Shown here: positions 25,948-61,656 of the stretch, piece after piece
How the letters are laid out: every line of letters begins with the position of its first letter
How positions within the stretch are numbered: the stretch's first letter is position 1
Assembly: GCF_006715085.1 (NCBI RefSeq)
Contig: NZ_VFMM01000004.1
Span: forward strand, 372,001-436,000
Direction: 5' to 3'
DNA length: 64,000 nt
From: Kribbella jejuensis
GTDB lineage: Bacteria; Actinomycetota; Actinomycetes; Propionibacteriales; Kribbellaceae
The notes under the pieces: model-generated
What the model saw: only the letters and a program-made list of their open reading frames with translations
Databases searched by the model: none
What the model was told of the DNA's origin: nothing
Made by a program: the position numbers and the translations under genes

Positions 25948-26671
25948 GCACCCGTGGAATGGCGGTCCGCACGAAGCGCCGGGTCAGCCCGGCGCGGGTG
26001 TGCCGCCACCACGGCCCGGTCCGGACCCCGTCGGTGTACCGGCGCCGCCGGATGTCCTCGACGACGTCCGCCGGCGCCCCGAGCCGGGGCAGCACGTCGA
26101 ACGCGGCGCGCTTGGTGATCAGGTCTCCGGTCGCCAGCGTCACGTGCGCCCGCGCGATCGTGAGCAGGCTCAGGTCGACCCAGATGTCGGCGTACCAGGG
26201 CCTGCGTTTGCGGGTCGCCGGCAGCCAGAACTCGCGCAGGTCCCGGCGGACGAACGCGAACAGCTCCTCGTCGGTCGTTGCCGGCAGCAACTCCACGGGC
26301 GCCGGCCCGAACAGCGTCCGGTTGCCGATCGCGAGCTCGCGGCGGGTCACCGGCGTCACCGGGCGGTCGAAGTACCGCCCGTGGGCGAAGGTCGGGTGCC
26401 GGATCGACGGATCAGCCAACCGGCCGATCGCCATGTACGAGCAGTGCAGCTTGGCCGCCAGCGGGTCAGTGCGGATCAGCTTCCGGTGTACGTCGGCAAC
26501 GGCCGACGAGGGTGGCTTCGCGACCACGACGATCACGTCCAGGTCGCTACGCCCGGGCTGGTAGTCCCCCAGCGCGAGCGAGCCGTGCAGCCAGACGGCC
26601 ACGACAGGGGCGGCAGAGCGGACAGAACGGACGAAGCCGTCCAGCAACGGCTGGACGGCTTCGTCGATCAC
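25934..26671 (-). CDS. Nucleotidyltransferase-domain protein (aminoglycoside adenylyltransferase-like)
   Basis: 245 residues with the Pol-beta-type nucleotidyltransferase signature HGSLALGDYQPGRSDLDVIVVV (residues ~29-50), with G-S-x(7)-D-x-D, followed by a helical domain (WYADIWVDLSLLTIARAHVTLATGDLITKRAA) typical of ANT(3'')/DUF4111 adenylyltransferases. It could modify an aminoglycoside or another small molecule; resistance cannot be inferred. It ends within the convergent YbaK-type gene. Confidence 0.8.
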   Translation of the reverse strand: MIDEAVQPLLDGFVRSVRSAAPVVAVWLHGSLALGDYQPGRSDLDVIVVVAKPPSSAVADVHRKLIRTDPLAAKLHCSYMAIGRLADPSIRHPTFAHGRYFDRPVTPVTRRELAIGNRTLFGPAPVELLPATTDEELFAFVRRDLREFWLPATRKRRPWYADIWVDLSLLTIARAHVTLATGDLITKRAAFDVLPRLGAPADVVEDIRRRRYTDGVRTGPWWRHTRAGLTRRFVRTAIPRVLSSP

Positions 26672-60473: not shown

Positions 60474-61175
60474 CTACGCGTGCGGGAGTTTGCGGGTCTC
60501 GATCAGCTGCTGCGCCACGTCGCGCAGCTTGGTGTTGGTGTCCTGGGAGTACCGGCGGAGCACCGAGAAGGCCTGGTCCTCGTCCAGGTCGTAGCGCTCC
60601 ATTAGGATCCCCATCGCCAGTCCGACGAGCTTGCGCGCGTCCACGGCCTGCGCGAGATTCTCCTCGCGGCGGGCGCTGGAGACCGCGACCGAGGCGTGCC
60701 GGGCCAGAATGTGTGCGATCGCTTCCTCGTCCGGGCCGAACGCGTCCAGCTCGGTGCTGTACAGCCCCAGCACGCCGACCGTGCCGTCGGCGGTGGTCAG
60801 CGGCACGTCCAGAACGCTGCGGACGCCGAGGCTGCGGACCTTCTCGGCCCACTCCGGCCAACGATCCTCGGCGGCGGTGTCACGGATCCGGACGAGCGAG
60901 TGGTCGCGCATCGACTCGGTCAGCGGGCCTTTGCCGCCGGCGACCTGGAAGGCGTAGATCTCGGCCACCACCGGGTCGGTGGTCGCCGGAATCTGCAGCC
61001 GGCCGTTGCGCACGATCAGCGCGACGCCGGCGTGCGAGCAGTCGAGTGCCTGCAGAGCGAACTCGACGACCGCGTCGACGGTCTCTTCCATCCCACCGGA
61101 CCCGTGCAGGTCGAGCGCGAGTTGCGCGAACTTGTGGGCCGTCAGCGAGGTCCCCGGCACATCCAGCATGCTCAT
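60474..61175 (-). CDS. GAF-ANTAR regulator
   Basis: 233 residues: a GAF domain (about 25-160; LQALDCSHAGVALIVRNG ... SVLDVPLTTADGTVGVLGLYS) and a C-terminal ANTAR RNA-binding domain (REENLAQAVDARKLVGLAMGILMERYDLDEDQAFSVLRRYSQDTN). ANTAR proteins bind twin hairpins in nascent RNA and prevent termination, so it likely regulates by antitermination in response to a ligand. Its ATG is six bases after a -10 in the mirror-symmetric promoter, so the mRNA is likely leaderless. Confidence 0.9.
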   Translation of the reverse strand: MSMLDVPGTSLTAHKFAQLALDLHGSGGMEETVDAVVEFALQALDCSHAGVALIVRNGRLQIPATTDPVVAEIYAFQVAGGKGPLTESMRDHSLVRIRDTAAEDRWPEWAEKVRSLGVRSVLDVPLTTADGTVGVLGLYSTELDAFGPDEEAIAHILARHASVAVSSARREENLAQAVDARKLVGLAMGILMERYDLDEDQAFSVLRRYSQDTNTKLRDVAQQLIETRKLPHA

Positions 61176-61176
61176 G

Positions 61177-61223
61177 ACGTCAAGGTAGCTTGACGGAACG
61201 CGACCGTCAAGCTACCTTGACGT
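61177..61223. promoter_or_regulatory. Perfect mirror-symmetric divergent promoter/operator
   Basis: ACGTCAAGGTAGCTTGACGG (61177-61196) and CCGTCAAGCTACCTTGACGT (61204-61223) are exact inverted copies around AACGCGA. Each arm holds GTCAAG-N4-CTTGAC dyads. Rightwards, TTGACG (61190-61195) and TACCTT (61213-61218) are spaced 17 bases; leftwards the same pair repeats by symmetry. The -10 ends six bases before the GTG at 61225 and, equally, six bases before the ATG at 61175. Both mRNAs should be leaderless. Confidence 0.8.
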
Positions 61224-61224
61224 T

Positions 61225-61656
61225 GTGACCTCTGACGCGGGATTACCTTCGGAACCCGCGGATATCAGGAACCTCGACGAACTCCTCGAAGTCCTGCGCG
61301 TCAGCGATCAACGGGCGGACATCGAGCTACAGATCCAAGAGGGTCGGAGGGCAGGCCACCCAGTGACCGTGCTGGTGAAAGCACTGGCAGAACTGCCCGG
61401 CGTCACCGGGCTGGAGGCGCTGCGGGCGAGCCGGCGCGTGGTCGAGCTGCTCACCGGCGCGCGCTGGCACATGATGCGGCAGGCTCGCGAAGAAGGGTCC
61501 AGCTGGAGTCAGATCGGCACTGCGCTAGGCATGACCAAGCAGGCGGCGTACGACTTCTACCGGCGCAACCTCGACCAGCAGGATGCAACAGCTGCCCCGG
61601 GGACGTACGACTCGGACCGATCGCGCGCAGCACTGGGACGCAACGCCGGCCAATGA
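61225..61656 (+). CDS. Small HTH-like protein, unknown
   Basis: 143 residues, mostly helical. The C-terminal part (LLTGARWHMMRQAREEGSSWSQIGTALGMTKQAAYDFYRRNL) contains a helix-turn-helix resembling those in sigma or AsnC-like proteins. It is divergent from the GAF-ANTAR gene and shares its palindromic promoter, so it may bind that palindrome. I do not recognise a named family. Confidence 0.75.
   Translation: MTSDAGLPSEPADIRNLDELLEVLRVSDQRADIELQIQEGRRAGHPVTVLVKALAELPGVTGLEALRASRRVVELLTGARWHMMRQAREEGSSWSQIGTALGMTKQAAYDFYRRNLDQQDATAAPGTYDSDRSRAALGRNAGQ

Follow-up and report, generated by a model that had tools for sequence, protein, structure and literature searches.

A palindromic gap between divergent GAF-ANTAR and HTH genes of Kribbella: a probable ClpC2-type self-repressed leaderless promoter in two-way form

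In gene pairs of the tetR/tetA type, a self-repressor and its divergent neighbor are controlled from shared dyads. ClpC2 represses its own promoter through the operator CGTCAAC-n5-GTTGACG, which stands one to two nt ahead of the ORF and is often repeated upstream over the -35 element (Taylor et al., 2023, PMC10030653). It binds its operators in EMSA, with both sites fillable at once and dimerization mattering, and a leaderless transcript has been suggested for it; DNA binding was assigned to the Clp_N domain on the basis of a double mutant with reduced binding (PMC10030653). The crystal structures cover residues 4-72 and 94-252, leaving uncovered residues 73-93 (PMC10030653), within which the second half of the ClpC2 HTH falls. 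RelI, of the RelS-RelI toxin-antitoxin system, is a short actinobacterial HTH protein akin to the HTH of ClpC2; the region upstream of relSI was reported to lack inverted repeats (PMC13284704). A different kind of symmetry is that of the bidirectional promoters of Warman et al. (PMC12825309 and the 2021 paper cited there), in which symmetric DNA takes RNA polymerase either way, and one binding event excludes the other. Against this background, the locus considered here, in a 64-kb stretch of the Kribbella genome (the window), is real, conserved and for the most part accounted for: judged from its sequence, it is probably a self-repressed leaderless promoter of the ClpC2 type that works in two directions. 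The operator type is already known from the ClpC2 of mycobacteria; the two-way form is rare.

The features are as follows.

60474..61175, minus strand: GAF-ANTAR protein, 233 aa, presumed second target (Pfam ANTAR, 1.3e-21)
61177..61223, no strand: palindrome, arms 20, loop 7
61179..61194, no strand: left predicted operator, GTCAAGGTAGCTTGAC, containing the GAF-ANTAR -10 and the HTH -35
61182..61187, minus strand: presumed -10 of the GAF-ANTAR gene, TACCTT, 6 nt before ATG, kept in relatives
61190..61195, plus strand: presumed -35 of the HTH gene, TTGACG, from sequence
61205..61210, minus strand: presumed -35 of the GAF-ANTAR gene, TTGACG, from sequence
61206..61221, no strand: right predicted operator, GTCAAGCTACCTTGAC, containing the HTH -10 and the GAF-ANTAR -35
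61213..61218, plus strand: presumed -10 of the HTH gene, TACCTT, 6 nt before GTG, from sequence
61225..61656, plus strand: 143-aa HTH protein, ClpC2/RelI type, presumed self-repressor, HTH motif at about 61498-61566

The gap between the two genes (61176-61224) is 49 nt long, and 61177-61223 form a perfect 20+7+20 palindrome: the left arm (61177-61196) is ACGTCAAGGTAGCTTGACGG, the right arm (61204-61223) is its exact reverse complement, and the 7-nt loop is AACGCGA. The preliminary description, which called the flanking genes correctly (GAF-ANTAR to the left, small HTH to the right), had the palindrome fill the whole gap; its perfection and its 20+7+20 form hold, but it spans 47 of the 49 bases, G61176 and T61224 being unpaired. 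It is not due to chance, since it is the longest exact inverted repeat of the window (loops up to 12 nt) and the longest arms in 15 dinucleotide shuffles were 10-13 nt, as against the 20 observed. The second-longest inverted repeat of the window lies elsewhere, at 26630-26665 (arm 16, loop 4, stem AGCCGTCC); it is G+C-rich and resembles a terminator without a T run.

The functional unit, read from the sequence, is the pair of 16-bp predicted operators and not the 47-bp palindrome. Each is a dyad GTCAAG-N4-CTTGAC, and the two copies lie 27 bp apart, start to start, the second covering the -35. The inner form TCAAG-N4-CTTGA occurs twice in the 7.5-Mb Kribbella genome, both times in this gap, and the looser GTCAA-N6-TTGAC four times genome-wide, of which two are in the gap. 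The right operator ends at 61221, just ahead of the GTG at 61225, and a dyad likewise stands a few nucleotides before the ORF at all seven intact Kribbella loci described below. The exact ClpC2 consensus CGTCAAC-n5-GTTGACG is absent from the gap, which has CGTCAAG-n4-CTTGACG, a 16-bp dyad.

Each strand carries the same presumed core promoter. On the plus strand, TTGACG (61190-61195) is followed after 17 nt by TACCTT (61213-61218) and, 6 nt further on, by the GTG at 61225; on the minus strand, TTGACG (61210-61205), 17 nt, TACCTT (61187-61182) and 6 nt lead to the ATG at 61175. The coordinates thus agree with the earlier reading of like-built, physically overlapping promoters, the shared segment being 61190-61210. 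A strict E. coli sigma-70 scan and a terminator scan of the region found nothing, the former because TACCTT agrees with TATAAT at only three of six positions; it is a weak -10 by E. coli rules but conforms to TAnnnT, the looser actinobacterial form. Transcription of each gene probably begins at the start codon, giving leaderless mRNAs: the 6-nt spacing from TAnnnT to the start codon, found on both strands at all seven loci, favors the divergent leaderless promoters that had been proposed.

The neighbors of the HTH gene are the GAF-ANTAR gene and an enoyl-CoA hydratase gene. The HTH protein had no Clp_N match and belongs to no NCBIfam family, and its first ~60 residues matched nothing known. 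When a profile of the seven Kribbella HTH proteins was searched against PDB sequences, RelI scored best (E 0.004), followed by the N-terminus of ClpC2 (Rv2667 of M. tuberculosis; E 0.011), both matches falling on the HTH and each individually weak. The pattern W..(I/V)(G/A)...G..(K/R)QA is present in the window protein, with a profile similar to those of ClpC2 and RelI, and on these sequence features its HTH is classed as ClpC2/RelI-type. An AlphaFold model (three sequences, mean pLDDT 62, low confidence overall) gave no significant fold match when compared with the PDB by Foldseek. The combination of a ClpC2-type operator with a ClpC2-type HTH favors what had been suggested for this gap, that a dimeric repressor on the GTCAAG-N4-CTTGAC dyads may block both promoters.

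Among 38 Kribbella genomes, that of the window included, seven, again counting the window, encode a clear orthologue of the HTH protein, at 66-73% identity. There is a remnant in an eighth, G016 (L032, L102), where an apparent deletion fuses what is left of the ANTAR gene to the C-terminal half of the HTH gene, having removed the HTH N-terminus and the operators. Each of the seven intact loci has two or three operators, whose arms agree with the dyad at 203 of 204 positions, and the 11-nt inter-operator spacers have a mean identity of 36%. At every one of them the TAnnTT of the nearest operator is followed after 6 nt by the HTH start codon, and on the divergent side, too, such a -10 is followed after 6 nt by a start codon (G033 uses its middle operator). 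The GAF-ANTAR gene (78-80% identical) is always on the divergent side. At three loci the divergent promoter reaches it directly or with an N-terminal extension; in the other four a frame intervenes, of 29-32 aa in G034, G011 and G033 and of ~120 aa in G026, so that there the relation of the GAF-ANTAR gene to the promoter rests on co-transcription. The 29-32-aa frame, absent from the window, begins at the leaderless position (L030 in G034, L031 in G011, L026 in G033) and stops at the GAF-ANTAR start in G034 (ATGA overlap) and G011, which suggests translational coupling.

Symmetry of the whole palindrome has a different history. It is exact (arms of at least 17) at three of the seven loci (window, G033, G026) and lost at four: the core changes are unpaired in G034 (CTAG/CTAT) and G011 (CTAG/CTAC), and extra operators break the symmetry in G015 and G019. 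Had the mirror itself been maintained, paired changes might have been expected in relatives, as the preliminary description proposed to check, and this is not what is seen. What is conserved at all seven is each dyad, the TA of each -10 in use, and the 6-nt distance to the start codon on both sides. Since the symmetry is broken while both promoters persist, it is the dyads and promoters that are conserved, and not the mirror as a whole.

A wider survey covered 129 non-identical loci in Actinomycetes encoding a ClpC2/RelI-type HTH, many of them from related species. An exact GTCAA-N-TTGAC dyad is found upstream in 119, nearly always in a one-way arrangement; it ends 0-6 nt before an in-frame start codon in 95, and 88 of these 95 have TAnnnT 5-8 nt before the start. 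A second copy is present at 101 loci and lies 27-29 bp away in every case. Dyad length follows protein architecture, being 16 bp for all 50 short proteins (<190 aa) and 17 bp for all 45 long ones, which are mostly Clp_N fusions (loci mainly L133-L242); the window genome has both lengths, the 17-bp form accompanying a family member in a 255-aa frame (L243). No covariation was evident at dyad position 6, complementary in 77 of 95 proximal operators (73 expected under independence) and 76 of 97 distal ones (75 expected). At four loci (L143, L148, L156, L185) the distal operator lies within a far longer perfect palindrome (arms 14-20) that has no start codon on the divergent side; it may have arisen by inverted copying or may terminate transcription of the upstream gene.

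Two-way use of 16-bp-dyad operators appears from these sequences to be rare. A mirrored TAnnnT in the right register accompanies six of 100 distal operators outside the window. When 394 genomes from the class were searched with patterns for the two-way layout (16-bp form only, up to two mismatches), the only mismatch-free occurrence was that of the window; with one or two mismatches there were three other genomes at 27-bp spacing and five at 28-bp. Nothing on this locus or on two-way clpC2-type promoters was found in the open-access literature.

The anatomy of the gap, its conservation, the co-occurrence of operators and HTH gene, the family membership of the protein and the layout shared with ClpC2 are all plain in the DNA. 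The reading of them that we prefer, with a probability of about 0.75, is that the operators coincide with the two core promoters and that a dimer of the ClpC2-type HTH protein, acting through them, represses both the gene that encodes it and the GAF-ANTAR gene on the divergent side. Binding, repression, leaderless starts and mutual exclusion are the steps that we infer. An HTH-protein dimer would bind each of the two dyads and so hide both promoters, because every operator takes in two elements, a -10 for the gene next to it and a -35 for the gene across the gap; the HTH gene (by negative feedback) and the GAF-ANTAR gene would then be shut down together. Release of the protein on some signal would turn both genes on, with mRNAs beginning at their start codons, and the overlap of the promoters would probably limit RNA polymerase to one direction at any given moment.

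It is conceivable, though improbable, that the gap is no more than two back-to-back sigma-factor promoters whose dyads are read by no repressor: TTGAC makes a -35 element in its own right, and every dyad overlaps a -10 with its outer half. Such a view leaves it unexplained that the GTCAA half-sites are invariant, though on the strand they face they form no part of a promoter, that G033, G015 and G019 have a third dyad away from either -10, and that the same pair precedes ClpC2/RelI-type HTH genes across the class in one-way promoters. Still harder to credit is a reader other than the HTH protein, whether the GAF-ANTAR product or an unrelated regulator. The binding assigned to the HTH protein is a prediction from sequence, which leaves room for such a reader; against it, GAF-ANTAR relatives are present in all 38 Kribbella genomes, and mismatch-free paired operators are found only alongside the HTH gene (six of the seven genomes with the gene have them at 27 bp, and G026 at 28 bp). 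Two genomes lacking the HTH gene hold pairs with two mismatches, in G007 upstream of a gene for a Clp_N protein and in G009 with a poor distal site, and no operator pair was seen in the stretch upstream of GAF-ANTAR relatives in those genomes without the HTH gene that were inspected. The dyad also accompanies the ClpC2/RelI-type HTH across the class.

The bistable switch raised in the preliminary description, in which mutually exclusive transcription would settle into two stable states, has the geometry on its side in one respect: with promoters overlapping at 61190-61210, joint occupancy would be impossible. A switch of that kind requires two mutually repressing products, and only one DNA-binding protein is present, ANTAR proteins being RNA binders and not DNA repressors. 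The operators moreover sit alike on both promoters, and most HTH relatives use the same operators one-way. A single self-repressor acting on both genes makes for co-repression and not a toggle, and we regard bistability as very unlikely.

How the mirror came to be exact is a separate question, and its answer leaves the functional reading unchanged. One possibility, doubtful but compatible with co-repression, is that the mirror was made exact when a near-palindrome underwent inverted copying, by template switching or gene conversion, and not by selection on symmetry. Fully mirrored operator pairs number four among 101, the window included, where re-pairing between loci predicts 0.3 (Poisson 3e-4, kinship among loci ignored), and a 27+2+27 perfect palindrome upstream of a 252-aa family member (L240), whose upstream gene is not divergent, takes in the start codon at both sides; together these give inverted copying some weight. 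Equal dyads (with the usual outer C/G) and the TA in each -10 already fix most of the mirrored pairs, so that exact symmetry is little surprise: by our own estimate some four of 20 pairs are free in the window, and a chance of roughly 1/100 to 1/256 would suffice. Exactness is also common to only three of the seven species. The recent gene conversion proposed earlier is thus needless for the layout, which is shared despite spacers only 36% identical, and possible, in the form of inverted copying, for the exactness.

On the co-repression reading, a striking palindrome is explained as two operators of a known type, and the design is a minimal one, 49 bases providing a pair each of promoters, repressor sites and leaderless starts, all presumed. 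More broadly, we lean somewhat towards a family of small self-repressors, shared across the Actinomycetes, in which the operator pair itself forms the core promoter, the HTH and not Clp_N reads GTCAA/TTGAC, dyad length (16 or 17 bp) follows architecture, and the Kribbella pair became a two-way promoter coupling the repressor to the GAF-ANTAR gene. The HTH is the likely reader because proteins too short for Clp_N carry the same paired operators and half-sites. This likely assignment differs from the published one for ClpC2, to its Clp_N half, and the comparison makes the question of the DNA reader in ClpC2 testable.

Among described systems, the clpC2 promoter of mycobacteria and other actinobacteria is closest: it too has paired GTCAA...TTGAC dyads over the -35 and -10, a proximal dyad 1-3 nt from the start codon, a probably leaderless transcript and a repressor with the same type of HTH downstream. 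ClpC2 itself differs in having a Clp_N domain and sensing cyclomarin A, the window protein being 143 aa without Clp_N; the clpC2 dyad measures 17 bp and has C/G at position 6, and that of the window 16 bp and G/C; and the clpC2 promoter serves one gene, whereas the window operators would also serve a second, divergent one. RelS-RelI differs in its toxin, no toxin gene being adjacent to the window HTH gene. Like the promoters of Warman et al., the gap is symmetric and would be used in either orientation with mutual exclusion; those have one shared symmetric -10 with starts beside it, and the window has separate -10s (61182-61187 and 61213-61218) that flank two nested -35s, its presumed starts being 50 bp from each other. 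In placing a presumed self-repressor and its neighbor under shared dyads the locus resembles the tetR/tetA type, from which it differs in that its operators double as parts of the core promoters and in the probable lack of a leader on either mRNA.
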